Source: a virus | DNA: 24,801 nucleotides | Strand: one strand, 5' to 3' | IMG/VR virus record: IMGVR_UViG_3300037493_000776 | Coordinates: 1-24,801 of that record | In this document: positions 4,490-23,604 of the stretch, piece after piece | How the letters are laid out: each line of letters begins with the position of its first letter | How positions within the stretch are numbered: position 1 is the first letter of the stretch | Notes under the pieces: model-generated | The model's database searches: none | What the model saw: the letters and a program-made list of their open reading frames with translations, nothing else | What the model was told of the DNA's origin: nothing | Program-made: the position numbers and the translations under genes

Positions 4490-4980
4490 TCTGTATCGCT
4501 TCTAAAATTTTGCTCTCTGTCGGGTGCTGAAATCTCGTTATTAGTATCAGCCATGTAAACGGGGAAATTATCTTTGTTTAACTCTAGGAACGCTCTCATG
4601 TTTCCTTCGTGTACCTTTGCAAACTTCAATACGTTTGTTCGGATATACTCCACCGCTTGTATTCCCTCACTTGCTGAATAATCACCGCTTTGAGATTGAA
4701 CACCTTTGTTTGATACTCTGAATGATAGATTAGGAATAGCATCATAAACCGAATAGAAAGCCGTAACGAATTGCACGAACTCAATTAACTCATCTTCTAA
4801 AGGAACGGTTGTACCCGCATTAAATTTAGTCAATAAGTCATTCGTAAAGTTGTACCCTAATATCGGTTGTATGTACGTCTTAACGCTTAATGCGATATAT
4901 GGCGCAAGGTCTTTAGCATCTACGTTTTGTGTGATGTTAGTATTCGTCTTTAGAAATTGCTCTGTTACAAAGTAAATCAT
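4480..4980 (-). CDS. Head-tail connector (adaptor-like) protein
   Basis: This 166-aa, mainly helical protein begins with FVTEQFLKTNTNITQNVD and contains AKDLAPYIALSVKTYIQPILG, resembling the helical adaptor proteins (gp6/gp15-like; DUF6712 in Bacteroidota) that bind below the portal. The position directly after the portal gene (4-nt ATGA overlap) and before a tail-terminator-like gene supports the role. The acidic C-terminus ends SDTEWL. The assignment is by fold resemblance and context; no catalytic motif is expected. Confidence 0.6.
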   Translation of the reverse strand: MIYFVTEQFLKTNTNITQNVDAKDLAPYIALSVKTYIQPILGYNFTNDLLTKFNAGTTVPLEDELIEFVQFVTAFYSVYDAIPNLSFRVSNKGVQSQSGDYSASEGIQAVEYIRTNVLKFAKVHEGNMRAFLELNKDNFPVYMADTNNEISAPDREQNFRSDTEWL

Positions 4981-6578
4981 TCTGAGGCTAATAATTGGTT
5001 AATAGTATCTTGGTCTATTCCGTATGCTGCCAAACGTGTACGTGCTAATGGTTCTGCTAAACGACCCTTTGAGAAATCTCTCATTATTCTCATCATATCC
5101 ATGTTATCCTTTGCGGATAAGCCTCTCAAATTTGCATTGCCCGTATCGGTTAACTGTTCCGCTTGTGGTTGCCCCGCTTGTGTTGGTGGTGCAATTACAC
5201 CCTCTTGAACGTTACCAAGTAAACGTGTTGCGTCAACTGTTGAGAATCCAAATATCAATTCAAGTAATGCAATCGCAGAACCTCTATCTGTTAACCCTTG
5301 TGCGACTGATGTTTGAATTTGTATAATACCTTGAACACCTCCAACACTTCCTTTAAGCTGCGCTCTTGCTTCAGCTTCTCTGTCAATCGCTACTGGCTCA
5401 CCACCATTTGAAACAATACCACCCTCTAACATATCTTTAACCGTAAGTATATCCGTTTCATTTATTGTTAGTTCACAAGGTACACCGCAAATTGTAGCCA
5501 ACTCATTTAGGAAATCTTGTATAGTTTCTCTATTAGAATTTACCCATAGCTTCTTAAACTGTTCAGCACTAAACTCAATCTCTTCAGTCGCTCCCAAACT
5601 TCCCGCAATCCTAACACCCATTAAAGCAGGGTTTAAATTGTGAGATATAGCCACCTCTTCTTTATATTCCTTGCTCGTTTGCTCGAACAAAGCATGGTTA
5701 TCTGTTGTGCTTACAATATCAACTTCAGGTAGATTATCTTTACCATTCGCTTCTACCTTCATTGCACGACCGTAGTTCTTAGCCCCTTTAGCATTTTGAC
5801 GCATACCACTTGACCAAACATCACGCTCATCGGGTGACATTATGTAAGGGTATTTGTAGATAACACTCGGTTGTATTCCGTTCTCAATTGCGCTCTTATG
5901 AAGCAAAGCAATATCAGCTCCTACCTTTTGCCAGTTTGCCGAAGAAACCCAATCAGGCATTCCGTAAGCACGAAAACCACCTACCCAATTTTTAAGCTCC
6001 AAAACTTGCCACTCATCCGTATTACCAATTTTGTAAGGTGTGAAAATAAGTTGACTAGTTGACCTGGTCCAATCTCTAGAATAGAAATAATGTGAAGGCG
6101 TATCGTTAAACAAACCGACCTGGGCATTTCTTATGCTTTCAGGATCAACTAATTTGAAATGGGTGTATTTCTTGTATTGTTTTGAATAGTGAACAAGCGC
6201 AATTACTCGACCATGCTTAACAAAATCTAGAACAACATTCTCACTAGACTTCTTAAATTTAGACATCGTTTCAAATTGCTTAATAGCTATCTTTTCCGAA
6301 ACATCTAAAGAATCGTAATCGTTCCATTCATAACCGTTACCAATTACGCTGTACTTTTTAAAGTTGCAACAAGCCTGGTGCATTGGTGCTGAAATGTATA
6401 ACTGATTTAAAATCATCGGATACAAATTTTGCTCCCCAAACCACACTCCGCCCGTTCGATTAACGTAATCATCAACGAATGGCTGTGATAAATCTTGACC
6501 CTCAGTATTGATTGTTCTAAAACATTCTAATTCCTTATTCTCTACTTGTGGTGTAACCGCTTTACTAAACCAACCCAT
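4977..6578 (-). CDS. Portal protein
   Basis: This 533-aa protein has the size and pattern of SPP1/HK97-type portals: an N-terminal region with NLYPMILNQLYISAPMHQACC, aromatic-rich wing segments (about 150-215), then the clip/stem region with EYKEEVAISHNLNPALMG and SLGATEEIEFSAEQF (about 310-345), and an Ala/Gln-rich C-terminal tail. It would form the dodecameric DNA channel at the capsid vertex. It lies downstream of the capsid gene rather than upstream, which is unusual. Its stop overlaps the connector start by 4 nt, and its ATG lies 1 nt after the upstream stop, so translation is probably coupled. Confidence 0.85.
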   Translation of the reverse strand: MGWFSKAVTPQVENKELECFRTINTEGQDLSQPFVDDYVNRTGGVWFGEQNLYPMILNQLYISAPMHQACCNFKKYSVIGNGYEWNDYDSLDVSEKIAIKQFETMSKFKKSSENVVLDFVKHGRVIALVHYSKQYKKYTHFKLVDPESIRNAQVGLFNDTPSHYFYSRDWTRSTSQLIFTPYKIGNTDEWQVLELKNWVGGFRAYGMPDWVSSANWQKVGADIALLHKSAIENGIQPSVIYKYPYIMSPDERDVWSSGMRQNAKGAKNYGRAMKVEANGKDNLPEVDIVSTTDNHALFEQTSKEYKEEVAISHNLNPALMGVRIAGSLGATEEIEFSAEQFKKLWVNSNRETIQDFLNELATICGVPCELTINETDILTVKDMLEGGIVSNGGEPVAIDREAEARAQLKGSVGGVQGIIQIQTSVAQGLTDRGSAIALLELIFGFSTVDATRLLGNVQEGVIAPPTQAGQPQAEQLTDTGNANLRGLSAKDNMDMMRIMRDFSKGRLAEPLARTRLAAYGIDQDTINQLLASE

Positions 6579-6935: not shown

Positions 6936-6950
6936 TATATGTACAAAAAA
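6936..6950 (-). promoter_or_regulatory. Upstream element TTTTTTGTACATATA (copy 3)
   Basis: One mismatch from the copies at 10102-10116 and 19627-19641. It ends 5 nt before the ATG at 6930 and its T-run doubles as the U-tract of the terminator at 6951-6973. It may be a promoter, a translation-initiation element or a processing site. Confidence 0.45.
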
Positions 6951-6973
6951 AGGGGCTTGTTTGACAAACCCCT
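6944..6973 (-). terminator. Strong intrinsic terminator after the tail tube candidate
   Basis: On the minus strand AGGGGTTTGT, loop CAA, ACAAGCCCCT forms a 10-bp stem (one G-U) followed by seven Ts. It begins 22 nt after the stop of the upstream gene. It is among the strongest hairpins in the window and should end or attenuate transcription before the portal block. Confidence 0.8.
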
Positions 6974-6995
6974 CATTTTAATGCAAATTAACTTT

Positions 6996-7553
6996 TTAAA
7001 CAGCTGCTACAAGCAAACCAGCAATTATTGCACTATCCACTTGGTACATCATGTGACGCTCGTTTTCTGAGGTCAATGTTACGGGCATTTGTTGACCCGC
7101 TGCACGTGTGTTATTAGTTGTTGCTGAATTAGCCGATAATCTCAAACCTTGGTCACTTCCAAGCATCCACCAATCATCATTGTTATCTTGAACAACTGCG
7201 ATTAAATCTCTACGCCCCGCAGCTAGTAAGCTAATTGCATTACGTTTTCTTAAATCAATTCGTCTAAATCCTAACTCACAAGTTTGAGAGTAAGAATGTG
7301 TATCTGCTACTAAATCACCCGACCAATCTTGACTGAACATTGAAGTGTCTTTAGGTAAAGGGAAATCTTCAAATTTAGTTCCAACTGTTCGTGTAACCGC
7401 TGTTACTTCGCCATCAGTATCAGGTGCTGAAGTTGCTGTTACGGTTAATCCCGTTACATCTTCAAAAGAACCGATAAGCGCACGTTTAATTGCTCCGAGG
7501 TTATTATCCCCGCAGTCTTTAGGTATTCCCACTAATGGGCTACAAATTGCCAT
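6996..7553 (-). CDS. Putative major tail (tube) protein
   Basis: This 185-aa protein begins with PLVGIPKDCGDNNLGAIK and contains LGFRRIDLRKRNAI, IAVVQDNNDDWWMLG and a beta-rich C-terminus. The pattern recalls a Bacteroidota phage family often listed as tail tube or structural protein. The gene is flanked on both sides by intrinsic terminators, as expected for a highly expressed virion component. A capsid decoration protein is the main alternative. It starts at ATG 7553, behind an A/T-rich leader and immediately downstream of the capsid terminator. Confidence 0.6.
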   Translation of the reverse strand: MAICSPLVGIPKDCGDNNLGAIKRALIGSFEDVTGLTVTATSAPDTDGEVTAVTRTVGTKFEDFPLPKDTSMFSQDWSGDLVADTHSYSQTCELGFRRIDLRKRNAISLLAAGRRDLIAVVQDNNDDWWMLGSDQGLRLSANSATTNNTRAAGQQMPVTLTSENERHMMYQVDSAIIAGLLVAAV

Positions 7554-7573
7554 ATCTTTCTATATTAAATGAT

Positions 7574-7602
7574 TAAAAAATAGGAGGGCTTTTACACCCT
7601 CC
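7574..7602 (-). terminator. Intrinsic terminator after the major capsid gene
   Basis: On the minus strand GGAGGG, an 8-nt loop and CCCTCC form a G/C-rich 6-bp stem followed by TATTTTTTAA. It begins 5 nt after the capsid stop. It may set the ratio of capsid to downstream products or protect the 3' end of the capsid message. Confidence 0.75.
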
Positions 7603-7607
7603 GTTTA

Positions 7608-8645
7608 TCAGAAGATGTGGAAATAAATCTCTTCAGCGTTTGTATAAGATGGTTGGAATTTGAAGTCAACACGTACACCAACTTTACGGTCAAGTGTAGT
7701 TTTCATAAAGTCAACAATATTAAATCCTAATTCCTCATCCATCAAGTCCATTACGTTTACTAAGTTTTCCCAGTATGTAGCAATGATAACGTTATCAGAA
7801 GCACCATCAGCCTTGTAGATTGGTGTACCTTGGAATGTTAAAGTTACATTCTCAATGTAATACAATCCACTTGCTTTGTTATCTGCAACAGCATCAGCCA
7901 AAGCGTCATAAACATTTGTAGAAACGATATAAGTAAAATCTTTCTTACGTCTTACTGCTTTAGGCAATACGTTACGTGCTTGCTTTAATTTAGCAATAAC
8001 GTTTGCATCTGTGATAGCTGAAGCAACACCACCGTTTAATGCAGTTGGAACAAGAATGTTCAAATCAGCAGCCATCAATACTTCTAATCCATCAACACCA
8101 TTTGCAGCAACTGTTCCTGTAAATGTGATTTCTTCCATTAACTCAGTAACTTGTGCGCTCAATTGCTCAAAAAAGAAGTTCATGAAAGCAAATTGTTGAC
8201 TAAAGTTATTAGAACCTTTTGCTAATTGGTCAGAGAAAAACGCAATCTCTAAAGAACGTACATCGAATACAGTACCGAACATTAAAGGCTTAACTTCGTA
8301 TTCTTTTTGTTTAGCAGTTGTGTTATCAGGGTTGAAAGTTGTAGCACCCGCTTTGATACCAACAGATGAAGCATCCAACGTACCTAATTTAACACGGTCT
8401 TTGACACCCAACAATTGACGGAATTTAGAACGAGTTTTCTCGTCACCAATCATAGCTTTACGGTAGTACTCCGTTGCGTTAGTAGTGTAATCAGCAGACG
8501 CATCAATTGTCATAGCCATCTCTACTTCTTTACCTTCAACATCTGAAATGTTACCAAAGGATTTCTTTGCGTTGTTGAAATCGTCTTTTGAAAGAGTGAT
8601 TTCTTTTCCACCTAAGTGAAAAGTTAGTTCATTTACTTTTGACAT
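7608..8645 (-). CDS. Major capsid protein, HK97-like
   Basis: The start chosen is the ATG at 8645, 345 aa beginning MSKVNELTFHLGGKEITLSK, because it falls just after the protease/scaffold stop; a longer frame starts at 8678 inside that gene. Length and pattern fit an HK97-fold capsid protein: E-loop-like region with TTFNPDNTTAKQKEYEVKPL, a long spine-helix region (about 140-165), and the C-terminal domain with FTYIVSTNVYDALADAV and a final RVDFKFQPSYTNAEEIYFHI. Its position right after a capsid protease and before a terminator is strong support. It would form the icosahedral shell. Confidence 0.85.
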   Translation of the reverse strand: MSKVNELTFHLGGKEITLSKDDFNNAKKSFGNISDVEGKEVEMAMTIDASADYTTNATEYYRKAMIGDEKTRSKFRQLLGVKDRVKLGTLDASSVGIKAGATTFNPDNTTAKQKEYEVKPLMFGTVFDVRSLEIAFFSDQLAKGSNNFSQQFAFMNFFFEQLSAQVTELMEEITFTGTVAANGVDGLEVLMAADLNILVPTALNGGVASAITDANVIAKLKQARNVLPKAVRRKKDFTYIVSTNVYDALADAVADNKASGLYYIENVTLTFQGTPIYKADGASDNVIIATYWENLVNVMDLMDEELGFNIVDFMKTTLDRKVGVRVDFKFQPSYTNAEEIYFHIF

Positions 8646-8646
8646 T

Positions 8647-10095
8647 TTATTTTTGATTTTTGATTGAATTAATACCATCAGAAATTACTCTCCATAACGG
8701 GCGCTTTTCTGACATCTCAACAGGAAGTTCCTCTAATTTAGGTGCTTCCAATTCACCTTTTAACTTTGCAATTTCACCCATAAGGCTTTCTTGAGCAGCT
8801 TCTAACTTTGCTAATCTGTCATCCTCAACAATTGGTGCTTCTTCAACGATTGGTGCTGGTGTTTCTGCCATTACTTCCAAAGGTTTCTCTTCCTCAATTG
8901 CGGGTGCTTCACATAAGCCCTCAGCTACTTGTTCAACTACTGCTTCTTGTTCGGGTGTTACTTCTTTCTTTTCGACAACTACACCATCTTTAACGATGTA
9001 TATTGTGCCATTGATTAAGTGTTCACCGTCAGGAAGCAAGATTTGTTCTTTCTCCATTTTACTTAATTTAACTATTGATAAATTTATTAGTGCTTCTATT
9101 GAATAAGCGTGTTTTTTATTTGCTTTAATTTCATTCTCCCAATAACCCTTGTCAGTTACTTGTGATAGGACAAACAAAGTTCCGAATGGTAATTTACTAG
9201 AATCGAATCCGTATTGGGTGTATGCTTTATCATTCTCACTTTCTGAAATCCAACTATCTAAAACATAGCTAGGTGCAACACCGCCTTTATGAGTATCTTT
9301 AAATAGATCGTCTTTTTCTAGCGTTCCATTAGACAAAGCTATTTCGTGCATTTCTCTAATCGTTTCAGATGAAAAGCGCATATTGTAACGACCTATTTCG
9401 TCATCTCTAAATATATCTTTGTCAGGAACAAGTAAAGGGGCGCATACTTGCATTAACTCATCTTTCGATAAGTAAGCATTTAAAGTAGTTGCTTCGTAAT
9501 CGTCTAGTCTTGCAGTAACTTGTGGTACAAATCCAACTCGCCTAACTTCGCCATCTTCGTAATCTTCAAAGTAGATTTGACGCTTCCATTTATGACGGCA
9601 ACCGTAAGAACCTTTGTAATCCCAAATAGAATAATTACCAAACTCAGGGTTGCTCAATCCGTTCTTGATTTCCTCTTCAGTATAAAGTCTACCTAGTGAA
9701 AGCACCTCCGAACAGAACGATCTTGTTTTATCATCATTAGGTCCTGTATATTCATAACGAACAAGCCATTGACCTCCTCCACCTTTCTTTTGAAAATCGT
9801 TATAACTTTCAGAATCTTCAACACCTAGATTAATTGAACGCTCCGAAAGATAAACTTCTTCACTTACCTCAGTCCAATTACTAGGTTTAACAACTCCACA
9901 AGATTTTAGGTATTCTAATATTTTAGCCTGTACTAATTCATCAGCTACAAGTCTAGGGTCGTGTGCGTTAAGATAAACACCAACCTCTTCAATAGCAGGG
10001 TCGTTAACGTATGCGATATTACGCCAACCGAAAGCGGGTTTAGCACCCTCTCGAATTGGTTTTAACGTCACATAGTAAGTCGCAATTTCTGCCAT
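8647..10095 (-). CDS. Fused minor head (MuF-like) / XkdF-type protease / scaffold-like protein
   Basis: This 482-aa protein appears to combine three modules. Residues about 105-175 look like the C-terminal part of Mu F-like minor head proteins: TRSFC (124-128), YSIWDYKGSYGCRHKW (155-170). Residues about 225-340 resemble XkdF (peptidase S78_2) capsid proteases: DTHKGG with His269, SYVLDSWISESENDKAY, and HAYSIEA with Ser332 as likely catalytic Ser. Residues about 375-460 are Glu/Pro/Ala-rich, ending in a coiled-coil stretch (DDRLAKLEAAQESLMGEIAK), suggestive of a built-in scaffold. It lies immediately before the capsid gene. A repeated 15-bp element sits 6 nt before its ATG. Confidence 0.75.
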   Translation of the reverse strand: MAEIATYYVTLKPIREGAKPAFGWRNIAYVNDPAIEEVGVYLNAHDPRLVADELVQAKILEYLKSCGVVKPSNWTEVSEEVYLSERSINLGVEDSESYNDFQKKGGGGQWLVRYEYTGPNDDKTRSFCSEVLSLGRLYTEEEIKNGLSNPEFGNYSIWDYKGSYGCRHKWKRQIYFEDYEDGEVRRVGFVPQVTARLDDYEATTLNAYLSKDELMQVCAPLLVPDKDIFRDDEIGRYNMRFSSETIREMHEIALSNGTLEKDDLFKDTHKGGVAPSYVLDSWISESENDKAYTQYGFDSSKLPFGTLFVLSQVTDKGYWENEIKANKKHAYSIEALINLSIVKLSKMEKEQILLPDGEHLINGTIYIVKDGVVVEKKEVTPEQEAVVEQVAEGLCEAPAIEEEKPLEVMAETPAPIVEEAPIVEDDRLAKLEAAQESLMGEIAKLKGELEAPKLEELPVEMSEKRPLWRVISDGINSIKNQK

Positions 10096-10101
10096 ACATA
10101 C

Positions 10102-10116
10102 TATATGTAGAAAAAA
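10102..10116 (-). promoter_or_regulatory. Upstream element TTTTTTCTACATATA (copy 2)
   Basis: An exact copy of the element at 19627-19641, ending 6 nt before the ATG at 10095 at the start of the head block. There is no hairpin next to it. The fixed distance to the start codon suggests a role in expression of the downstream gene. Confidence 0.5.
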
Positions 10117-10117
10117 C

Positions 10118-10834
10118 TTATTTGTTTGATTTTATATAAGATAATTGATTAAATGCTAGGTAAAGATTTTGGTCTAGCACATCGTTAAACTTTGTAATAT
10201 CGAAATCACTAAGCATATTTAAAACAACCATCCATTGATTATCTCCTTGCTTTGCCCTTGTTTTCATTTCTAAATCATATTCCGCTTTTTCCTCTTCATT
10301 TAACTCATCAACTTTCACATCTGCGTAAGGGTCTGAGAATAATTCATAGCTATTAAAAAACGTTTCACGAAATTTATTATACTTTTTACAAGCTCCTAAA
10401 ATCTGATTAATTGGTAACTCATCAATCAACTCACTTCGATAATCTATATTCACAAGTTTGTAATCTTCAATGATATGGTCGTACATACCTCCACCACTTT
10501 CAGACAAGTAGATAGTCGAAGCTATTTTAGATATATTTTCGGTGAATCCATTAGATACATATTCCTCTAAGTTAATGAATTGTCGAAGTGTTAATTTAGT
10601 AAACGGTTGTAAAGTTAAACTAACATCATCTATTAGTATAGTTTCCGAATACCTATCCGATACTTTGACTTTCGTTTGTGCTATTTTATAGGCACTTACT
10701 AACTTATCAACTCGCCATGTTTGAACGTCAATAGGATCTAAATCATCAACAACAGAAACAAGGTGTATCATCTTATCAAATACACCTTCTAACTGTTCTG
10801 AATTAATTTCTTTATACTGTCTTGTCAGAAGCAT
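10118..10834 (-). CDS. Hypothetical protein after tape measure, possible tail chaperone
   Basis: This 238-aa, mostly helical and acidic protein starts at ATG 10834 inside the end of the previous gene (23-nt overlap). It contains TLQPFTKLTLRQFINLEEYV and KYNKFRETFFNSYELF, and ends YLAFNQLSYIKSNK. A helical product next to the tape measure gene suggests tail assembly, perhaps the second of a G/T-like chaperone pair, but the pair lies downstream of the tape measure gene rather than upstream as usual. No family motif was recognised with certainty. Confidence 0.6.
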   Translation of the reverse strand: MLLTRQYKEINSEQLEGVFDKMIHLVSVVDDLDPIDVQTWRVDKLVSAYKIAQTKVKVSDRYSETILIDDVSLTLQPFTKLTLRQFINLEEYVSNGFTENISKIASTIYLSESGGGMYDHIIEDYKLVNIDYRSELIDELPINQILGACKKYNKFRETFFNSYELFSDPYADVKVDELNEEEKAEYDLEMKTRAKQGDNQWMVVLNMLSDFDITKFNDVLDQNLYLAFNQLSYIKSNK

Positions 10835-11378
10835 CTATAAGACTTTGTACATATTCAACGTACTGTTTAGACAAATCAAATATTACGGGGCTTGCAATGT
10901 CAGCCGTAACTTCTTTACCGAATAACTCCGCTTTGTACTTTAAATGTGCATCGGTATAATGTTCTGTATTAGTTAACTGAACATCTTTGTAAACAACTGC
11001 AAACGCTTTATTTCCCCATGCTCCACCACTTCTTGCTAGGTTTTCAATCTTCGCTATATCTTGCGCTGACAAATACAGTTTGCCATCTTCTAACTCACAA
11101 GCGTATTCTCTACCATTAACCTCAATAATAGGTTTAATCTCGTTTGTTATTTCTGTAATTTGTACACTTTGCACCGCTTCACCGAACATCTTTAACGGTA
11201 TAACCTCTACAAGTTCTTTACTCCCTAGAATAGATAATACCTCTAGCCATCTATCTGCATGGTCTTTTTTAGTGTCAGCTTCTAAAATATGACTAATCTG
11301 TGCTAGTTCATTCAACGTAACCTCACTCCCAAGGTTGCGCAATTGGTAATCATTACCTTTTATCTTTAATGTTTTCAT
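10812..11378 (-). CDS. Hypothetical protein, possible tail assembly chaperone
   Basis: This 188-aa protein begins MKTLKIKGNDYQLRNLGSEV, a beta-hairpin-like start followed by helices (TLNELAQISHILEA, DRWLEVLSILGSKELVEVI), similar in feel to tail chaperones or tape-measure-associated proteins. The second half includes ENLARSGGAWGNKAFAVVYK. Its ATG overlaps the tape measure stop as TAATG, and its 3' end overlaps the next gene by 23 nt in a different frame. I see no classic slippery heptamer in the overlap. Function is inferred from position only. Confidence 0.55.
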   Translation of the reverse strand: MKTLKIKGNDYQLRNLGSEVTLNELAQISHILEADTKKDHADRWLEVLSILGSKELVEVIPLKMFGEAVQSVQITEITNEIKPIIEVNGREYACELEDGKLYLSAQDIAKIENLARSGGAWGNKAFAVVYKDVQLTNTEHYTDAHLKYKAELFGKEVTADIASPVIFDLSKQYVEYVQSLIDASDKTV

Positions 11379-13297
11379 TACGCTAAAGTAACTTTATTAT
11401 TCATCATTTGCAACTCATTCCCTTTATCTTGTATATCATGGTAATCTACAACGATAACTTTCTCACGCTTAGAACTACTTTGAGCCGTTTGTTCCGCTGA
11501 ATTATTCAAGTTCATTTGAGGTGTTTGCGAGGCTTGTTGAATACCACCCATTGAAGGCATAGAAGCACCACCCATAGAAGCACCACCACCACCACCCGAA
11601 GCACCACCGTTATACTTAGTACTTGCTATCTTTGCAATACTTGATGCTGTTGTCGCAATCGCAAACGCTAAAGAGGCAATACCCGCAGGTGATGGTATCG
11701 GACCTATTGCGATAGGTGCTTGAGCAAGTGACGAAGTAATTGACTTGTAACCATCAACAACTGCCATAGCTAAGTTCATAGCTTTTTGAACGTTGAATTG
11801 TCGCTTTGCTCTTGCTTCTTTAGACTTTTCGTCTTGCTTACCTAGACTATTCGATATAGTGAAAATCGTTTCAGCTAGTGCCACAACTGAATCTCTATAC
11901 TGTTGTTCAATCTTTGCTTTAGTAGCTGCTTTCTCTTCGGCTTGTGCAACCTCTTTAGCTGCAATTTCCTCATTCTTTTTAGCTATTTCGTCAGCCGAAG
12001 CAATAACGGCTTGTTTTTGTGTTTCCGCATCGGAGGCTTTCTTATCCGCTGCATCTTTTTCTAGTGCTGCTTTTTCATCTAAATACTTTTTATCTAGTGC
12101 TAATTCAGCCGCTAATGATTGTTGTTTAAGTATAAATGCTAACTTATCTTTTTCTGCTTTAAGTAGTTTTTCATTAGCTAAAGTATCAGCAATTAAACGC
12201 TCATATTTTATTCTGTTTTCTTCGTATTCCTTAAATTGTGCGTCTTTTATCAATTCAAGCTCAGCATCTTGAATAGCTCTTAACGCTGCTAATCTGTCGG
12301 CTTTCTCTTGCTTACGTCTATCACTTGCTGCCTTTGCCGCTGCTTTATTATCCGCTGCTTGTGTTTCGTTTTTCTTCTTGTTATCCGCTACCTCAGTTGC
12401 ATTGATTACCTCAACTTCTTGTTTAGCTTCGTGAATACCCGCTTTTAAATCCGTTATTGCTTTACGAATCTCATCGGCTTTCTCCTTAGTTAAATCGCCA
12501 GCCAATTTTAGCTGCTCCATTTGAACACGTAACGCTGCTATTTGCGCTCTTGATGTTTCAATGATAGCGTATTGCTTTTGGCGTTCCATCTCCACAACAT
12601 TCTCACCCGCTATTCCTGCCAACTTAATCTCATGGTCGTAACTATCTACAACCTTGTTTCGTTTCGCTTCGTGGCTTGCTGCTATCTTTTCTTGTGCCGC
12701 TGCTTGTTTACGTGCGCTTTCTTCAGCTGCATAGTCAGTTAAACCAATCCAATCTAGAAAGTCTTTAAGTTGTTGTATTACCCATCCAATAGCCTTTCCT
12801 ACTGCATTGAATATATCTTGAAGTATTCCAAGTTCATCTAACAAAGCTATAACTGCTGCAATAATAGCACCCACCACCGCAACAATTAAGAATAGTGGAT
12901 TAGTTAAGATTGTTTTACCAATCGAAACGAAAGCCGAACCCATTTGTTTTAACGAGCCTATCGCATCTTTGAATGTGATTGACTTAGAAGTTTGAGCAAA
13001 TAGTTTAGCACCATTCGTTACACGATCAAAATCCATGTCACGTAACCCCGCCCCAATTTCACCTAATGAATTAGAAACCGCTTCATACTTCGACCCCGTA
13101 GCAAATACCGCAACTTGCTCATTAACTTCAGCCATTCTGTCTTTAAGGGCAGCGGCTTTTTGATTGAGTTTGTCAAATGCTTCCGTACCAATTTCGGCTT
13201 GTTGAAGTTGTTGGATTGTTTCCCGTAGTTCAGCCTTTAAACTTTTAACGGGTCTATCGTCTACGTCAACTTTGATTTTAATTGTGTTATCTGCCAT
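11378..13297 (-). CDS. Tail tape measure protein
   Basis: This 639-aa protein has the tape measure layout: an N-terminal helical region beginning IKIKVDVDDRPVKSLKAELR, a hydrophobic segment (about 134-153), long Ala/Lys/Glu-rich coiled coil (about 190-460), a second hydrophobic region with AIGPIPSPAGIASLAFAIAT (about 541-560), a Gly/Ser/Met-rich linker, and a short beta-like tail. Tape measure proteins set tail length and are injected with DNA; at roughly 0.15 nm per residue this would suggest a tail near 95 nm, an inference from the known rule. It lies 2 nt after the upstream gene and is TAATG-coupled to the next. Confidence 0.85.
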   Translation of the reverse strand: MADNTIKIKVDVDDRPVKSLKAELRETIQQLQQAEIGTEAFDKLNQKAAALKDRMAEVNEQVAVFATGSKYEAVSNSLGEIGAGLRDMDFDRVTNGAKLFAQTSKSITFKDAIGSLKQMGSAFVSIGKTILTNPLFLIVAVVGAIIAAVIALLDELGILQDIFNAVGKAIGWVIQQLKDFLDWIGLTDYAAEESARKQAAAQEKIAASHEAKRNKVVDSYDHEIKLAGIAGENVVEMERQKQYAIIETSRAQIAALRVQMEQLKLAGDLTKEKADEIRKAITDLKAGIHEAKQEVEVINATEVADNKKKNETQAADNKAAAKAASDRRKQEKADRLAALRAIQDAELELIKDAQFKEYEENRIKYERLIADTLANEKLLKAEKDKLAFILKQQSLAAELALDKKYLDEKAALEKDAADKKASDAETQKQAVIASADEIAKKNEEIAAKEVAQAEEKAATKAKIEQQYRDSVVALAETIFTISNSLGKQDEKSKEARAKRQFNVQKAMNLAMAVVDGYKSITSSLAQAPIAIGPIPSPAGIASLAFAIATTASSIAKIASTKYNGGASGGGGGASMGGASMPSMGGIQQASQTPQMNLNNSAEQTAQSSSKREKVIVVDYHDIQDKGNELQMMNNKVTLA

Positions 13298-13299
13298 CG

Positions 13300-13653
13300 T
13301 TAAATTATTTTTGCGCTAAAACCATAGTCAATAAACTTTTCAACTGAGTAGGCTAATGCAGTATCAATTGACTGTATTTCAGTTTCCAAGATATTCACTT
13401 CAAATGCATTCGTGTTTACGTTTGTCACTAACTCATTACCCTCTGAGTATTCAAACTCATTCAAAAACACTTTAGGAGTAACCGTTAAAGTTTGCCCGTT
13501 TAAACTTGCGTTAAACTCAATCCGCACATAGCAGTTGTCTAGTTCGATATCCGTTCCTTTGATGAAGATTGATTTTCCTAAAACTATAATTTCCTCACCC
13601 GTTTCAGGGTCAATAATTACCTTGTCAATTCCTTTACTTAGTAGTATTCCCAT
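13300..13653 (-). CDS. Small beta-rich tail-region protein
   Basis: A 117-aa protein, largely beta-prone, beginning with LLSKGIDKVIIDPETGEEII and containing YVRIEFNASLNGQTLTVTPK. It lies between the fibre-like gene (TAATG overlap) and the tape measure gene (2-nt gap). A virion accessory, fibre attachment or baseplate role is plausible from position, but no family is recognised. Confidence 0.6.
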   Translation of the reverse strand: MGILLSKGIDKVIIDPETGEEIIVLGKSIFIKGTDIELDNCYVRIEFNASLNGQTLTVTPKVFLNEFEYSEGNELVTNVNTNAFEVNILETEIQSIDTALAYSVEKFIDYGFSAKII

Positions 13654-14867
13654 TAGTCTAATCGTTTATATTTTAATATTGAGCCTTTCCATGTTCGTGC
13701 AGTTGTGGCAGCTATTGCACTATTTTGTGCAAATTGATATGAAAATGTAGCGTTTGATGAAGCCGTAAATGAAAACATTATTCTTGCACTTGCTAGTAAA
13801 TCTAAATCAGCAGCATTTGTTCCACTTGCAATAGTTCCTGTTGCATTAGTACCGTTTACATTATAGGCTGTATTTTGAGCAACTGCCGTATTAGATGTTC
13901 CTGTAAAAATTCCGCTTCCTTTCATAGTTCCTGCGCTTACTTTGAACCCACTTTTATAATCACCAGCTGCACTATTACAAGAAATAACTATATCCATCAT
14001 AACCATATAATGCCCACCCGCAACAACTGAAAACTGCAAGTCAGTATCATTAACAAGTGTTGCACTATTCGTAACATCTTGATTCGCACTTTTGACTAAT
14101 ACGCTCCAACCTTCAGGATTAACGGGTGCTTTATCCTCCCATAATCCAGTACTACTGTTATACGTTAATACATCACCATTAGAAGGTGATACAACCGCTA
14201 CACCCTCATCGTTTTTTATGTTACTTGCCGTTGTTGTTCTAACTTGAATAATACCATTTGAAGCAGCATGAATAACAATAGCTACCATTACAATATTATT
14301 TGGAGCAACAGGTGGTGTGGCTGTGAATCCACCCGCAACAGTTGACGAAGCATAAAGAATAGCACCATCTGTATAAGCTGAAGTATTATAGTGTTTTACT
14401 TGACCGAAATGTACTACCATTCCATCATCTCCATTAAGTATATTCTCAGCAGTTACCCCCATAACATACTCACTCGGATATGTTCCGTCTGCTAGAAATG
14501 GAGTTATAAGTATTCGACCACTAGCACCAAGTGTTCCATTTGCTCTTACTACTGTTCCCTTTGGAATAGTTACTCCCGTTTGATTTTTAGCTATGTATAA
14601 TGTATCTTCTAATACTCTACCTACTGTTCCATTCATTACAAGTTGTAACGTGTTATGGTCAGTGTCCCAACTTAATGTGCCTTGACTTGTTGGTGTGCTT
14701 GTTGGTGTTGTATCGAATCCTATAAATCCAGCATCTAAACCGAACTCACCTAAATCTACATTACCCGTTGCACCCGTATAAGGAACACCACCTCCACCAC
14801 CTACTACTAGATTACCACTACCCTTAATGGAATCTCCGTTAATTGTTTTTAATTCTGTATAACTCAT
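13653..14867 (-). CDS. Tail fibre or appendage protein
   Basis: The start chosen is the ATG at 14867 (404 aa, beginning MSYTELKTINGDSIKGSGNL), because it overlaps the upstream TGA as ATGA; a TTG at 14879 is an in-frame alternative. ELKTINGDSIKGSGNLVVGG followed by VPYTGATGNVDLGE is a hallmark N-terminus of phage tail fibre proteins. The middle has a SWDTDHNTLQLVMNG segment, and the C-terminus is Ala/Ser/Thr/Asn-rich and beta-structured (about 270-400), like trimeric receptor-binding tips. It probably contacts the host surface. Confidence 0.75.
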   Translation of the reverse strand: MSYTELKTINGDSIKGSGNLVVGGGGGVPYTGATGNVDLGEFGLDAGFIGFDTTPTSTPTSQGTLSWDTDHNTLQLVMNGTVGRVLEDTLYIAKNQTGVTIPKGTVVRANGTLGASGRILITPFLADGTYPSEYVMGVTAENILNGDDGMVVHFGQVKHYNTSAYTDGAILYASSTVAGGFTATPPVAPNNIVMVAIVIHAASNGIIQVRTTTASNIKNDEGVAVVSPSNGDVLTYNSSTGLWEDKAPVNPEGWSVLVKSANQDVTNSATLVNDTDLQFSVVAGGHYMVMMDIVISCNSAAGDYKSGFKVSAGTMKGSGIFTGTSNTAVAQNTAYNVNGTNATGTIASGTNAADLDLLASARIMFSFTASSNATFSYQFAQNSAIAATTARTWKGSILKYKRLD

Positions 14868-17782
14868 ATTATTAACCAATTAGTACCATCCGAAATAAAA
14901 GTTTTGCTTTCATTTGGCACAAGTGTTTGTGTTACTATTCCATCAATTAAATTAGGACTTGTTACGCTTATGTTTGCAGCACTATAATTCTTTACTGTAT
15001 ATCTTTTACTGCCATCATCAAAGAAAGTTGAATCTAGTAAAGTGATCGTTATCGCTGAAGTTGTAGCTACTATCAAATCATCGCTGAATAGTGCCGTATA
15101 ATTCACATTCATTTTAACAAATGATAATCCCTCACTAATTACCCCACCCACATAAACACCGCTTCTTGTTGGTGTTGTTTGGTCGCCTACTATCTTTGTT
15201 CCATTAAATCCAACGGGAACGTTATTAATCGAACCCATTATTTGAACATCACTCGCTAAAACAGTATTAACATCGCCTTGTATCTTAATGCGGTCACCAG
15301 CTGCAAAGTTATACTTACCGCTTATTAGAATATCATTACCAAGTCTTATATTCGTGTCACTTCCAACCGTATCAAAGTGTTTGTTAATAACTCCACTAAA
15401 CGAAACAGTTGTACCTCCAAATGGTCTAAATGGTCGCTTGTATTTTAGTCTTAGCTTTTCATCAGCTGTAATCAAATCAACTTTTGTTATAGTTCTTTTA
15501 CCTGAGTTATAACCGTATATTTTTGATACAAAAAACCATCCGTTATCTTGAATGTAAATCTTCCAATCTAGTGTCTTTGATAGCTTCTGAAAATCCGCCT
15601 CACTTAAATTAAAATAACCAGTTAAGCGTTTGCCTTCATTGATTGTGGTTAACTCTTGTTGGTGGTGTAAGTTGTATAAATAGTTGGTTGTTTGCCCTTG
15701 CTGAAATGAATGAAATAATATGTTTGGCGAATCGTAGCAAATACTAAAGTTTGGAATCAAATCATTATCAAACATTGACGTATTATTGTAATCAGTTACC
15801 TGAGTAACTTGTAAAGGATTTGGTAGCAAGTCATCGTAAAAAGGATATTGCGATACTGTACCCACTCCATTGTGTAAAAGAACACGAACATTACAATCAG
15901 GATTAACACCATTGATTGAAGGTAAAGGTATATTAATACCACTTCCTACACTCGGAGTTGGTGAATAAATTACCTCTCTTTTGTCCGTTCCAACCGTATA
16001 TTCGTTATCTAGTATCAATGTAGTTTGTCCATAAGTCTCAACAAATTCCGCTTGATAAGCTGCGTTTAATTCGTCTTTATCGTCTTTATATCTATACTCT
16101 TGACGTTGCTTAACATCGTTGTTTAGAAACGTAATTGAGTTCGGCTGCGATTCATCAAACTTATCAGTCCAATCCCATTCTAAACCATCGTTATAAAATT
16201 TGTCTCTAGTCTTAATAATGATATTAGTTTCATTGTCAGGGTCAGGAACAAATACTAAATTATAGCTATTCTTAATCGCACTAATTAGATCACGTTGTTT
16301 AATCTTCTTTGGTATAAAAGCGTTCACATCTACATTGGTCCCGCTGATTAATTCAGTAATATCAGGAATGGCTCTAAATTGTAGATTGGTAATATCAATA
16401 TCAAATTCTAAACGTACTGGGCTACCCGTTGAACTATCTAAAAATTGAACAAGTTGAGTTGATAACGATTGAACACTAAAGGAGTTCATCAATGTATACT
16501 GTGGTGAGTTAACAACTTGCGCACCTGTTGATGTAAAGTAGCGACCAAATATTAAAGCGTGAACATCAAACTTTTCGTTTGCATCAAATATTCCCAGGTT
16601 AGCAAAAGAGGCATTATTTCCACTCGCTAAAGGTTGCCACCCCGCAGCATAAGGAGTTGTACCCGTACCAAATGAAATTGCAGTTTGACCAGCATCGATA
16701 TAAGCAACTTTGTTTACATTCGTTGTTGACTGAGCAACTAAACATATTTTAACGTCACATCTTCTTAAACCAGTAAAAAGTCCTCCATCAGCTTCCCAAG
16801 CCACACCACCCAAAGCACGAACTTGAATGTTATAATCGTAGTTAGTTAATATCTGAAAGTTTCTACCTTGACCGCCTAAATTAGTTAGGTCATTGTTTAC
16901 TGTTGACCATTGAGATTGTGCATCTTCAAATATATTTGATAAGTCAATTTTAGAGTTTGCAGCTGTTGCGTAATTGTTCACACTTGTTGCGCTCAGATAA
17001 TCTAACATTGGTAACCATCCGATTGGATAAGTTGGATTATTTGTATTGTCAATTACATAGTTAGCCGAAGCCATTTCACCACGAACTGAATAAATTTGTT
17101 TCAATGAAGCCGCTATTGTATCATCGCCTTGCTTACCATTGTACGGAACAATACGCTTATCCATTTGGATAGTATCTTCATTATATTCTGCAAATGTGAA
17201 CGTATAGCCATTTGAAGCGAATATCTTTTTAAAATACTCCCATTCATAGATGGCAGGTTTAAAGTCTCTTAGCGTGTAGATATTATCACTCTTTGCGTAT
17301 TGAGGATAAGTATATCCGCTTGTATTGGACCAACTAGATATTATATTAGCTCGGTTAAAAACATGGCTTAACTCAGGAAATGAAAGCTCAGTCAATTCCT
17401 TGTCGCCCATCTCATTGAAGAAATTACTAACCTCATCAAATACGTTTATCTTGTACTTAACTAATTTGTGATTAGTACCTCGAACTTTATTAACTCGGAT
17501 AACCTCCAACAACTGAATGAAACCCTCGAATACTTCAACACCGTTTTGAATGACTGAAGCACTTGTTTTCTTGTTACGGTCAAATGTATTATTAGTTAAA
17601 TCAATATCGAATAAAGCACCTAATATAGTTGTATTGTTTTCCGTTCCATCAACTTCAAGTGAACGTGAAGCACCGCCCGTTCTTGCACCGCTTTTAGTTA
17701 TTTCAGCGAAGGACAAGTCAATAGGAAAATCCGTTCCAATTGGTAAATCAATAAAGCCAGTCTCTAATTGTATTCTAGTCAT
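14864..17782 (-). CDS. Large tail protein, likely distal tail/adsorption component
   Basis: This 972-aa protein is the largest in the window. The N-terminus (GFIDLPIGTDFPIDLSFAEI, then SRSLEVDGTENNTTILGALF and EVFEGFIQLLEVI) matches a pattern I know from large tail or baseplate proteins of Bacteroidota phages. The C-terminal 180 residues change character: a low-complexity beta-helix-like stretch (about 805-880) and a final domain with KRYTVKNYSAANISV and SDGTNWLII, typical of fibre tips. It would thus be both structural and host-contacting. No hydrolase motif was seen. It is coupled to the previous gene by TAATG and to the next by ATGA. Confidence 0.7.
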   Translation of the reverse strand: MTRIQLETGFIDLPIGTDFPIDLSFAEITKSGARTGGASRSLEVDGTENNTTILGALFDIDLTNNTFDRNKKTSASVIQNGVEVFEGFIQLLEVIRVNKVRGTNHKLVKYKINVFDEVSNFFNEMGDKELTELSFPELSHVFNRANIISSWSNTSGYTYPQYAKSDNIYTLRDFKPAIYEWEYFKKIFASNGYTFTFAEYNEDTIQMDKRIVPYNGKQGDDTIAASLKQIYSVRGEMASANYVIDNTNNPTYPIGWLPMLDYLSATSVNNYATAANSKIDLSNIFEDAQSQWSTVNNDLTNLGGQGRNFQILTNYDYNIQVRALGGVAWEADGGLFTGLRRCDVKICLVAQSTTNVNKVAYIDAGQTAISFGTGTTPYAAGWQPLASGNNASFANLGIFDANEKFDVHALIFGRYFTSTGAQVVNSPQYTLMNSFSVQSLSTQLVQFLDSSTGSPVRLEFDIDITNLQFRAIPDITELISGTNVDVNAFIPKKIKQRDLISAIKNSYNLVFVPDPDNETNIIIKTRDKFYNDGLEWDWTDKFDESQPNSITFLNNDVKQRQEYRYKDDKDELNAAYQAEFVETYGQTTLILDNEYTVGTDKREVIYSPTPSVGSGINIPLPSINGVNPDCNVRVLLHNGVGTVSQYPFYDDLLPNPLQVTQVTDYNNTSMFDNDLIPNFSICYDSPNILFHSFQQGQTTNYLYNLHHQQELTTINEGKRLTGYFNLSEADFQKLSKTLDWKIYIQDNGWFFVSKIYGYNSGKRTITKVDLITADEKLRLKYKRPFRPFGGTTVSFSGVINKHFDTVGSDTNIRLGNDILISGKYNFAAGDRIKIQGDVNTVLASDVQIMGSINNVPVGFNGTKIVGDQTTPTRSGVYVGGVISEGLSFVKMNVNYTALFSDDLIVATTSAITITLLDSTFFDDGSKRYTVKNYSAANISVTSPNLIDGIVTQTLVPNESKTFISDGTNWLII

Positions 17783-19266
17783 TATCCGTTTATTTCGTCT
17801 TGTACTGACATAGTGAATACTAAGTTAACCTTTCTATCTCGTTGCGTTCTTTTGAGGTGTAGCGGCATCGAAGCACTCGTTATCTTAATAGATTGAAATT
17901 CGCCACTATCAATTGATACGAATGCTTGAGGTGAAGATAATAATTCACGCATAAACTGACATTCTGTCTGTGATAGTATGCCCGTATTAACTGTATAAGA
18001 AATAGTTTCTTCAACATGATATGTTTCATCTCCGTTATCCGTTGCGTTGTAAGTCCAATTACCACCATCTAATGTACCATACTTCTTTCTAATATCATCT
18101 CGTTGTACTGATTGATTCATATACGAACCTTTGTAGAATGGTATAGTAATCCAACTACCTAAACGATCTAAAAACGCTATATCGTAAGTCGTATGTTCGT
18201 CGCATTCGTTGTACAAAGTAATCGTTTTAGCTTCTGACTTTACAAGCCCTGTATTAGTTTGGATTTGTACCGTATAGCTTGTTACGTTTGTTAAGTCAAT
18301 TGTTCCTACAAATGCTACCCATGTACCCGTAAATGTTTGTGTGATTATTCCTGTACTTGGTAAGGCATCGAATAGTATAACATTCTCAGCAAATCCGCCC
18401 AATCCATATCTGTATAATGTACCGCCAATATTAAACACGGCATAATGAGTAGCTGCATTATCTAAGTAACAACTTAACCATGTTGATTTCTGTCTACTTA
18501 TTCCTATATCATCTGTAATCGTTGTTAAGAACTTCTTTGTAACACCATCACAAATATAGTCGGTATGGTCGTAATCTTTGAACGTAAGGAATCCAAACGC
18601 TCCCTTGTATGCTTTCTGTATGCTTGTAGTAATTCCGCTTACTGTTGTTTTCTGTCCATCAGCATAAGATGATACACCCGCACTAACTCCACCCGAACCA
18701 ATCCAAAGTAAATCTAAAACTGTATAGTAAACACCCGCATTTAGAAACACATCTAAAACTGTATGCACACCCTCTAACTCAGGACGAAAGTTAACACCAG
18801 GCGTTTGAGCAACTAGAATAACGTCACCCGCTGAATAGACTGGCAAAGTCGCTTGTGCTAACATTGTACGTGTAAATCCACTCGGATTAATAGAAGGCGT
18901 ACCGAAATCAGCCCATGTAGCAGCACCCGCAAATCCGTAATCCGTAAACGCTAAACTAACATAGTAACTCTCATCAATTGTAACTGTATAACTCATTTGG
19001 TGACCCGAAGCAATATAAGCCGTTAACTGTTGGAAGTCATTATACAATTGTGTTTGAACTAATTTAGCTATATCAATCTCACCGTATAAAGTGTTAGGAA
19101 TTGGTTTTAACTTATACGTTCCAATCACCTCTGAAGTTGTATCGTTGGTTACTGTAATAATATATCTAAAACCTAAATTCGCTTTAACCGTACTATCAAA
19201 ATAGAAGTACATAGGATTATAAGCGGGTGTTAAATACTGAGGTTCTGCTAGTGTTGTTATTGCCAT
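17782..19266 (-). CDS. Tail structural protein, Bacteroidota phage type
   Basis: This 494-aa, beta-rich protein begins with TLAEPQYLTPAYNPMYFYFD and contains YIITVTNDTTSEVIGTYKLK and GEIDIAKLVQTQL, a layout seen in large structural proteins of Bacteroidota phages that precede the big tail protein. Repeated Tyr/Thr-rich strands suggest several stacked beta domains. There is no membrane segment or catalytic motif. Its position between the neck-like gene and the large tail protein suggests a tail or baseplate role; exact function unknown. Both boundaries are TAATG overlaps, so translation is probably coupled. Confidence 0.65.
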   Translation of the reverse strand: MAITTLAEPQYLTPAYNPMYFYFDSTVKANLGFRYIITVTNDTTSEVIGTYKLKPIPNTLYGEIDIAKLVQTQLYNDFQQLTAYIASGHQMSYTVTIDESYYVSLAFTDYGFAGAATWADFGTPSINPSGFTRTMLAQATLPVYSAGDVILVAQTPGVNFRPELEGVHTVLDVFLNAGVYYTVLDLLWIGSGGVSAGVSSYADGQKTTVSGITTSIQKAYKGAFGFLTFKDYDHTDYICDGVTKKFLTTITDDIGISRQKSTWLSCYLDNAATHYAVFNIGGTLYRYGLGGFAENVILFDALPSTGIITQTFTGTWVAFVGTIDLTNVTSYTVQIQTNTGLVKSEAKTITLYNECDEHTTYDIAFLDRLGSWITIPFYKGSYMNQSVQRDDIRKKYGTLDGGNWTYNATDNGDETYHVEETISYTVNTGILSQTECQFMRELLSSPQAFVSIDSGEFQSIKITSASMPLHLKRTQRDRKVNLVFTMSVQDEING

Positions 19267-19622
19267 TATCTAAACATTTGATCTATTTGGTATTCCATGC
19301 TAATCGCTGCTATCTTTTCTATTTGGTCTAATACTTTCTCCCTCTTCATAAATGCCTTTGTTAAATCACGTTTAACCTTGCCACCCTTCCACTTTCTACT
19401 ATAACCCTCATCAACATAGATATAATAAAACGCTCTATTTCCATCTATTTGTAATTCAATATCATTGCTCATTACATCCCACTTCACCTTAACAACCCTA
19501 GTTACATTCTTCATTAAACCAGTATCAACTGCGTGTTGTCGTATTATCTCTTTCTTGATTTCAGTATTGAATACTCTCGTTGCCGTTCCTATTCTTCGCC
19601 ATACATCATTCTGAGTTGCCAT
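19266..19622 (-). CDS. HK97 gp10-like neck/tail-completion protein
   Basis: This 118-aa protein contains IRQHAVDTGLMKNVTRVVKV and, after a beta stretch, FYYIYVDEGYSRKWKGG; the VDTG...Y..YVDEG pair recalls the gp10-like family that helps join head and tail. The C-terminal half is basic and helical. It lies directly after the large terminase, away from the portal and connector genes, so the assignment rests on motif resemblance. The ATG at 19622 is preceded by a repeated 15-bp element and a 27-nt gap from the terminase stop. Confidence 0.6.
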   Translation of the reverse strand: MATQNDVWRRIGTATRVFNTEIKKEIIRQHAVDTGLMKNVTRVVKVKWDVMSNDIELQIDGNRAFYYIYVDEGYSRKWKGGKVKRDLTKAFMKREKVLDQIEKIAAISMEYQIDQMFR

Positions 19623-19626
19623 AACT

Positions 19627-19641
19627 TATATGTAGAAAAAA
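19627..19641 (-). promoter_or_regulatory. Upstream element TTTTTTCTACATATA (copy 1)
   Basis: An exact copy of the element at 10102-10116. It ends 4 nt before the ATG at 19622, within the short gap after the large terminase gene. It has no adjacent hairpin. It is a candidate start of the tail transcript or an initiation enhancer. Confidence 0.5.
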
Positions 19642-21634: not shown

Positions 21635-21770
21635 TGCCTTCTAATTCAAGTAAAAACTCTTTAACTGATACCGCTTTGATATGTGGGAACAACTCACGAA
21701 GTTCTTTCAATTTCAGCTTAGTTAGATCAACAACTTTAGGAGTAACTTCTACTCCTTTAATTAGTTTCAT
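21615..21770 (-). CDS. 51-aa small protein between the sigma-like gene and the 62-aa gene
   Basis: A frame from ATG 21770 to TAA (21615-21617) encodes a basic-to-acidic amphipathic peptide: MKLIKGVEVTPKVVDLTKLK, then LKELRELFPHIKAVSVKEFL, ending NVQTED. The composition is clearly protein-like, with a leucine-rich helix pattern. It overlaps the preceding sigma-like gene by 14 nt and the following gene by 20 nt, filling what would otherwise be a 122-nt gap in a tightly packed operon. No family is recognised. Confidence 0.65.
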   Translation of the reverse strand: MKLIKGVEVTPKVVDLTKLKLKELRELFPHIKAVSVKEFLLELEGNVQTED

Positions 21771-22275
21771 TTTGCCTTTCATATTCTTTCAATTTAATTT
21801 TAAAATCCTTAATAAGTGTGTATGCTCCATGATGAGATACTTTCAGATACTTCGCTAATCCTCTAACCGTTGTAATTCTCTTGTTCAAGTATAAGTCAAT
21901 GAATCTCAACTCATGTGGTTCTGCATTAATCTTATACAGTTCGATAGCGTATAATCTGTTTTGATAGTGACTATCGTTTACTTCGTCCTCTTCCATATAT
22001 ATGTTATCATTTATGGTTTCGTTTGCGAGAATCTTATTATTTATATTAAATTCTGAATTATTCCACTTGTAAGTGTTAGACGATACCATACGAATAAAGC
22101 CGCCTAAACTCCTTTCATTCGGAATCTTAGCGGCTCTACTTATGCACGTTAAATATATTTCTGTTGTTATATCATCCTTGTTGATTGTAGCGCATTTAGA
22201 GGAGTTAGCTTTTACTACGGCTTGTATTTCTTGCCAATTATTAGTAAAGTAATCGTCTATTTGGTCTTTATTCAC
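21757..22275 (-). CDS. Sigma-like helix-turn-helix DNA-binding protein
   Basis: The start chosen is GTG at 22275 (172 aa, beginning with V-N-K-D-Q), because the preceding 27-codon microgene ends there in a GTGA overlap; an in-frame ATG at 22401 would add a cysteine-rich N-terminus with little protein-like character. The protein has an N-terminal helical region with KDDITTEIYLTCISRAAKIP, and a C-terminal helix-turn-helix (RITTVRGLAKYLKVSHHGAY) followed by a basic helix, the arrangement of sigma-70 regions 2 and 4. It could be a phage sigma-like factor or transcription activator, perhaps driving the structural operon. It overlaps the 51-aa gene by 14 nt. Confidence 0.6.
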   Translation of the reverse strand: MNKDQIDDYFTNNWQEIQAVVKANSSKCATINKDDITTEIYLTCISRAAKIPNERSLGGFIRMVSSNTYKWNNSEFNINNKILANETINDNIYMEEDEVNDSHYQNRLYAIELYKINAEPHELRFIDLYLNKRITTVRGLAKYLKVSHHGAYTLIKDFKIKLKEYERQNETN

Positions 22276-22355
22276 TCGGCTAATATAAGTAAATATATCG
22301 AACAAACAAATATAATTGCAGAAATTATGATAAATGTGTTGTATAGTTGTTTCAT
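22272..22355 (-). CDS. 27-aa membrane microprotein
   Basis: A frame from ATG 22355 to TGA (22272-22274) begins MKQLYNTFIIIS, continues as a hydrophobic stretch (AIIFVCSIYLLI), and ends LAE. That is one complete membrane helix with polar ends. Its ATG overlaps the stop of the upstream gene (ATGA) and its stop overlaps a GTG that starts the sigma-like gene (GTGA). Precise coupling at both ends, matching the style of all neighbours, argues that it is translated. Function is unknown; a small membrane regulator or superinfection-exclusion peptide are guesses. Confidence 0.55.
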   Translation of the reverse strand: MKQLYNTFIIISAIIFVCSIYLLILAE

Positions 22356-22991: not shown

Positions 22992-23209
22992 AGTGTTAAG
23001 TTATTATCGTTTGCAAATTCTAATAGTTTTTCTCTAAGGTGTTCAGCCATTGCATATTCGTCTTCACTTGGCTCTCGACCTTGGTAAACATCATGCTTAG
23101 TTGTTTCCCTTAATAATGCATCAATCTGCAAAACTGTGTGCTTCCAATCGAAAGCCTACATTGCTAACTTAGCATCCTCTTCTTCGTCAAATTCAATCGT
23201 TATTTTCAT
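22988..23209 (-). pseudogene. Small phage gene interrupted by an in-frame amber codon
   Basis: From ATG 23209 the frame reads MKITIEFDEEEDAKLAM, meets TAG at 23156-23158, then continues open for 55 codons (AFDWKHTVLQIDALLRETTK, later EHLREKLLEFANDNN) to a TGA that overlaps the next gene's ATG. Together the two parts match the layout of a small phage family I recognise: an MKITxEF start, a DWK/LR middle and a REKL end. The AAAAGGATT leader and the promoter box upstream look functional. The TAG could be a C-to-T change from CAG (Gln), a sequence error, or a suppressed codon. Without readthrough only a 17-aa peptide is made. Confidence 0.75.
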
Positions 23210-23231
23210 AATCCTTTTAGTTTTGTTTCTA

Positions 23232-23239
23232 CAAATATA
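23232..23239 (-). promoter_or_regulatory. Bacteroidota -7 box TATATTTG
   Basis: TATATTTG on the minus strand matches the Bacteroidota TAnnTTTG consensus, 22 nt upstream of the ATG at 23209 that heads the small-gene cassette. No TTG lies at the usual -33 distance; a palindrome (23252-23268) occupies that area instead. It is a likely start of the cassette transcript. Confidence 0.55.
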
Positions 23240-23251
23240 GGTTAAATAATG

Positions 23252-23268
23252 TTTAGAATGATTCTAAA
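23252..23268. promoter_or_regulatory. 17-bp palindrome, possible operator
   Basis: TTTAGAAT-G-ATTCTAAA is a perfect inverted repeat with one central base. It lies directly upstream of the TATATTTG box, where the -33 element would be, so a bound dimer could repress or activate the cassette promoter. It also lies 1 nt after the stop of the 40-codon frame. Confidence 0.5.
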
Positions 23269-23391: not shown

Positions 23392-23414
23392 AATTCTTTC
23401 TATTATGTAAGGGA

Positions 23415-23480: not shown

Positions 23481-23484
23481 ATCT

Positions 23485-23513: not shown

Positions 23514-23545
23514 GTTGTTAATACTTATTCAATTACGATAACAAA

Positions 23546-23575: not shown

Positions 23576-23604
23576 GACTGTTACCAGCAATGCCAGTGAC
23601 ACCG

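Follow-up and report, generated by a model that had tools for sequence, protein, structure and literature searches.

The late promoters of phage T4 are read by the sigma factor gp55, precede late structural genes and have a short A/T-rich -10 with no -35 element. ECF sigma factors (group 4 sigma-70) combine sigma2 and sigma4 in their fold and go with bipartite promoters that have AAC in the -35 and a T-rich spacer. Such proteins can be encoded by phages: the ECF sigma of phiEco32 has been shown to bind the host RNA polymerase, and Privateer has a homologue (PMC7881722). The sigma-A promoters of Bacteroidota have the form TTTG / TAnnTTTG. Their downstream box spans -12 to -5 in F. psychrophilum (PMC9723704), and in F. 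johnsoniae transcription starts 4-5 nt beyond the box (PMC6847099). We found no described late promoters for Bacteroidota phages in the literature searched, which included few subscription papers.

The window, i.e., the whole 24.8-kb stretch of a virus record that was analysed, carries three copies of an element that we take for late promoters of this known general kind, a phage sigma factor with its cognate promoters. It is rather likely that they represent a new form of it: ECF-like, nearly leaderless, and subject to fast concerted divergence in phages of Flavobacteriia. As in T4, a phage sigma factor would act on late structural genes through a short A/T-rich -10, but the window element has a conserved -35-like block, unlike the T4 type (TATAAATA as the -10, no -35). 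The candidate reader would share with phiEco32-type sigma factors its ECF type and its being phage-encoded; it differs in belonging to a phage of another host phylum and in having no detectable sequence match in 50,697 phage records.

The 15-mer TTTTTTCTACATATA is found exactly at 19627-19641 and 10102-10116 and, with one change (C to G at position 7), at 6936-6950, always on the minus strand and 4-6 nt before an ATG (Table 1). These are the copies described in the original prediction, and they clearly exceed chance, with three matches in the window at up to one mismatch where 0.02 were expected. At up to three mismatches the count (7 vs 4.8 expected) is near chance, and therefore only three copies were considered. 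The genes that follow had been proposed to head the tail, head and portal blocks, and the gene layout agrees with this; the 8647-10095 gene matches in position a gene annotated as capsid maturation protease in phage TCUEAP1. The majority of the window's genes, that of the capsid included, lack the element. Neither is there any site of this type upstream of the terminase genes, so these must be expressed otherwise.

Table 1. Coordinates of the putative late promoters, the genes that follow them, and the candidate sigma-like gene in the window
Feature	Position	Strand	Remarks
Host-type -7-like sequence TATATTAG	22280..22287	-	4 nt before GTG of sigma-like gene; read by eye
Sigma-like protein, 172 aa, GTG start at 22275	21757..22275	-	Candidate reader of the three putative promoters
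Putative promoter 1, -35-like block TTTAACAAA	19646..19654	-	EM model, PWM score 14.1; conserved in relatives
Putative promoter 1, -10-like block TACATATA	19627..19634	-	4 nt before ATG 19622
First tail-block gene, 118 aa	19266..19622	-	Directly 3' of putative promoter 1
Putative promoter 2, -35-like block TCAAACAAA	10121..10129	-	PWM score 14.3; conserved in relatives
Putative promoter 2, -10-like block TACATATA	10102..10109	-	6 nt before ATG 10095
First head-block gene, 482 aa	8647..10095	-	Directly 3' of putative promoter 2; then capsid gene
Terminator-like hairpin + T run	6950..6974	-	Overlaps putative promoter 3; fold -15.3 kcal/mol, z -4.1
Putative promoter 3, -35-like block TCAAACAAG	6956..6964	-	PWM score 13.6; within loop and 3' arm of terminator-like hairpin
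Putative promoter 3, -10-like block TACATATA	6936..6943	-	5 nt before ATG 6930
First portal-block gene, 116 aa	6580..6930	-	Directly 3' of putative promoter 3; portal next at 4977-6578

Relatives were gathered by searches with the terminase, the capsid protein, the 8647-10095 protein and the sigma-like protein, so that the collection is independent of the motif. In front of the three orthologous genes they show two conserved blocks, and the 15-mer, whose second half is the -10-like block TACATATA, is just the downstream half of a longer element: TAACA, 13 nt (14 at the third site), TACATATA, 4-8 nt and ATG. The upstream TAACA/CAAACA half, 13-14 nt further 5', had escaped the original prediction, as had the hairpin overlapping the third copy. 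An expectation-maximisation fit gave [T][CGT]TAACA[AG]N, followed by N10 at two sites or N11 at the third and by NTACATATA, with frequencies of 0.82/0.91/0.91 for A-A-C in the -35 block. Scored with the full-element PWM, nothing else in the window exceeds 8.4 (the three sites reach 13.6 to 14.3), and a shuffled control yielded 0.01 matches above a score of 12. All three window sites have a T run in the spacer, and the element thus has the AAC -35 and T-rich spacer of ECF-type promoters. It differs from these in the -10, which in the window clade is ACATATA instead of CGT, and in the start codon lying only 4-8 nt after the -10 block.

The spacing within the element is fixed, but the ATG follows after a variable 4-8 nt. 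The upstream stop codon has no set place either, its extremes being 203 nt ahead of the -10 block and 10 nt past the start of the -35 block. The element is thus found in coding or noncoding DNA alike: in the window, the TAA of the first -35-like block is the stop codon of the terminase large subunit, and the second -35-like block overlaps the coding end of gene 10118-10834. Many random copies in coding DNA, which would have argued against a functional element, were looked for in the window and the relatives and not found. In a 31-kb relative, ACGTTATAAG is present exactly three times in the whole record, all at these three sites; in relatives of 33 and 40 kb, the form with the T run and TACATATA is likewise confined to them (the 40-kb record contains two late regions that overlap). 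Among the distant terminase relatives (L032-L056) and phages FpV9 and TCUEAP1, no clear equivalent of the element was recognised by eye. The bare 15-mer followed by ATG was rejected as a diagnostic, since across viral contigs most matches outside the phage group precede tiny ORFs or none. In a 40-kb contig (3300020044_002851; L008, L037, L163), two diverged copies of the late region lie ca. 29.9 kb apart, which suggests a chimeric assembly of two strains with a permuted genome close to 30 kb in size; in that case, the window would amount to about 80% of a genome.

The sequence of the element changes in concert within each phage. The -10 variants TACATATA, ACACTTA (L167, L182), CCACATA (L176, L067), ACACATA (L069) and ACGTTATA (L174, L173 and others) interchange together at a phage's sites, and in L131 GTGAAATGA replaces TAACA at both of its available sites. 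Between the sites before the 6580 and 8647 genes, the -10 blocks had a mean mismatch of 0.54 within a phage and 2.33 across phages (p<5e-5, permutation of phages), and the -35 blocks 0.46 and 2.15, respectively (p<5e-5, permutation). For the other pairs of sites, the permutation test gave p=0.002 and 0.006 in the -10 block; in the -35 block it detected no co-variation of the 19266 site with the others, perhaps due to its overlap with the terminase stop codon. Agreement within phages is what a shared reader predicts and independent drift does not. Taken with the fixed inner spacing and the free position of the stop codon, the concerted change suggests that a trans-acting specificity factor recognises the element as DNA, i.e., that the element is a late promoter. 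Of the three functions originally offered, the comparative data thus favour the phage-specific promoter, through the second block at fixed spacing, the concerted variation and the placement in coding and noncoding DNA; the translation enhancer and the RNA processing site fare less well.

On structural grounds, the best candidate reader of the three putative late promoters would be the product of 21757-22275, whose gene is conserved upstream of the terminase in relatives. Its earlier description as sigma-like is supported by the fold and by a chain of profile matches to sigma70-ECF. AlphaFold (AF2) models of the 172 residues have two helical domains (pLDDT 75-77), whose relative orientation is not reliable at a pTM of 0.43. 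These appear equivalent to sigma regions 2 and 4, without regions 1.1 and 3, i.e., the ECF-type layout. Region 2 aligned at residues 1-81 and matched RpoE and SigK (Z 8.7 and 7.8, rmsd 2.5; for helical domains, Z values around 8 are modest), and region 4 at residues 96-172 and matched sigma-E (Z 7.7). The leading Foldseek matches are all sigma factors, and so are the best PDB matches; with a deeper sigma alignment the pLDDT rose slightly and the Foldseek significance fell, the best matches still being sigma factors. In sequence, the protein differs from ECF sigma factors in being too diverged to reach any Pfam or NCBIfam cut-off, and matches a phrog_1740 sigma factor at an E of 0.02. A sister family from related phages (A6), which aligns with it over the full length (hhalign, 98.4%), matches TIGR02937 (sigma70-ECF) at 6e-5, itself below the cut-off. 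Over nine phages, the association between -10 type and sigma sequence was suggestive, not significant (Mantel p=0.06). A NIYRW segment is present in the sigma-like proteins of L016 (2436-2948), L017 (8521-9012) and L019 (161-673), all with a CACTTA-type -10, while NTYKW pairs with ACATATA and TEYRW with CGTTATA; this segment is a possible specificity determinant.

The sigma-like gene itself probably has a host-type promoter. Besides the -7-like sequence in Table 1, there is a TTTG 19 nt upstream of it (22307-22310), a perfect TATATTTG covers 22307-22314, and relatives carry TACATTTG or TATATTTG at the same place. This arrangement is suggestive of a cascade in which the host sigma serves the phage sigma gene and the phage sigma the late genes. 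A scan for promoters of the E. coli sigma-70 type gave a background result (72 found vs 68 expected), and this type was rejected. At 22992-23604 there are some 600 bp without a clear gene, with hairpins at 23546-23575 and 23494-23513 and a host-type TATATTTG box at 23232-23239 (minus strand), possibly an early or middle control region.

It is unlikely that the promoter activity of the late element depends instead on a host sigma factor, either sigma-A or one of the ECF type, perhaps aided by a phage activator, with the 21757-22275 protein having some other role. In its favour, TACATATA partly resembles TAnnTTTG, hosts carry several ECF sigmas (PMC9723704), and the sigma-like protein stays below profile cut-offs. 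The downstream box of the element is also similar in position to that of sigma-A promoters. However, the invariant T at -7 and G at -5 of the host box (TAHHTTTG) are absent from TACATATA at all three sites, and TAACA is found instead of TTTG. Furthermore, the concerted -10 change between related phages fits a phage-encoded reader better, and a sigma-like gene near the terminase accompanies the element both here and in the Nonlabens phage described below.

The copies are therefore probably phage late promoters, with TAACA as -35-like block, a T-rich spacer of 13-14 nt and TACATATA as -10-like block, most likely read by the host RNA polymerase with the phage ECF-type sigma-like protein and giving near-leaderless transcripts. 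A host-type promoter would drive the sigma-like gene earlier in infection, and its product, on the host RNA polymerase, would switch on the tail, capsid and portal blocks. Because the -10 block ends 4-8 nt before the ATG, and given the geometry of the host box, late transcripts should begin 0-4 nt from the start codon, leaderless or nearly so, which may be tolerable for a host that initiates without Shine-Dalgarno sequences; by eye, the genes of the window show no evident ones. Leaderless mRNAs are a minority of 5.5% in F. psychrophilum (PMC9723704), so that near-leaderless late mRNA would be a special feature of the phage. As for the host, the terminase is most similar, among phage records, to those of Flavobacterium and Elizabethkingia phages (ca. 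44% identity). In genome contigs, the 8647 protein had no match and the terminase distant relatives only, in a Flavobacteriales bin and in Salinimicrobium, from which the host seems to be Flavobacteriia-like.

A translation enhancer, by which the element would recruit ribosomes from within the mRNA leader in a host without Shine-Dalgarno sequences, is very improbable. It would account for the constant vicinity of an ATG in a host of this type, and the element has A at favourable positions (in F. johnsoniae, A helps translation at -3 and -6; PMC6847099). Yet it is the distance to the ATG that varies (4-8 nt) and the -35 to -10 spacing that is fixed, the distant TAACA block co-varies with the -10 block, and most window genes, even that of the capsid, do without the element. 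In addition, the element at the 6580 site comes immediately after a strong hairpin and T run, so little read-through RNA would carry it. Five relatives keep this hairpin with stems of other sequence (z -3.7 to -4.7). Under the late-promoter reading, it would end upstream transcription, and the overlapping promoter would restart it. In L171 and L172, the phage element after the hairpin is replaced by the host -7 sequence TATCTTTG, which lies roughly as far from the ATG; this speaks for a promoter position of the element. The idea that the T run is just the tail of an intrinsic terminator or a processing site, with the remainder incidental, draws on this same true terminator-like hairpin before the 6936 copy but is hardly credible, and a terminator-only reading was rejected, because the other two sites lack a hairpin (-0.4 and -0.2 kcal/mol) and the T run is the least conserved part (TTTTAT, ATTTAT or AAAAAA in relatives) whereas TACATATA and TAACA are kept.

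Some other features were seen along the way. A second terminator-like hairpin and T run, between the capsid gene and gene 6996-7553, is located at 7583-7602 and is kept in relatives with different stems; gene 6996-7553 is preceded by a conserved A-rich leader of its own (TTTAAAAATTAGAAATT), in which the promoter element is lacking. The tail-end protein encoded at 2969-4489 ends in an Lcl_C-like domain (PF07603, just below the cut-off) and is possibly receptor binding. In a related phage, L017, a 492-aa ORF (4384-5862) has a long S-L-A/D-S-S repeat run.

The cultured Nonlabens phage P12024S, with little protein similarity to the window, carries an independent version of the element. All six coding-strand copies of CGTTA[AC]TA are located exactly 4 nt before annotated late genes (01, 05, 08, 41, 44 and 45), with 0.025 expected near starts, and each has AAACAAA or AAACACG 13-14 nt upstream. 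P12024L keeps five of these sites. Gene 33 of P12024S passes the Pfam cut-off for sigma region 2 and sits just upstream of the terminase. The two phages thus share with the window an arrangement AAACAAA-N13/14-CGTTAATA-N4-ATG before late genes, a sigma gene near the terminase and a similar late gene order, while differing in the -10 sequence and in having more copies and little sequence similarity. CGT is not found in the -10 of the window sites and appears only in the L174-type relatives (ACGTTATA) and in P12024S (CGTTAATA); both of these -10 blocks start with CGT, as does the ECF-like SM6 motif of F. psychrophilum (PMC9723704). The small minus-strand genes 04, 07 and 43 annotated in P12024S (L209; 2750-2980, 5123-5365 and 24839-25135) occupy the gaps that immediately precede promoter copies and are probably spurious.

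Late transcription in flavobacterial siphophages might follow a common system, with a fast-diverging ECF-like sigma factor of the phage and a small, near-leaderless regulon that shift specificity together and so give each lineage a private promoter code. The genome-wide switches of the -10 among TACATATA, ACACTTA, CCACATA, ACGTTATA and CGTTAATA are in line with this idea, for which we see the chances as evenly balanced. The analysis provides a specific motif, a candidate sigma factor, a prediction of the start point and a cultured phage-host pair (Nonlabens P12024S), and a regulon of three to six sites with a fast-diverging sigma-like protein offers a compact natural series for the joint change of sigma and promoter specificity. 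If the late-promoter reading is true, the structural genes of these phages would be expressed from near-leaderless mRNA in bacteria that dispense with Shine-Dalgarno sequences.
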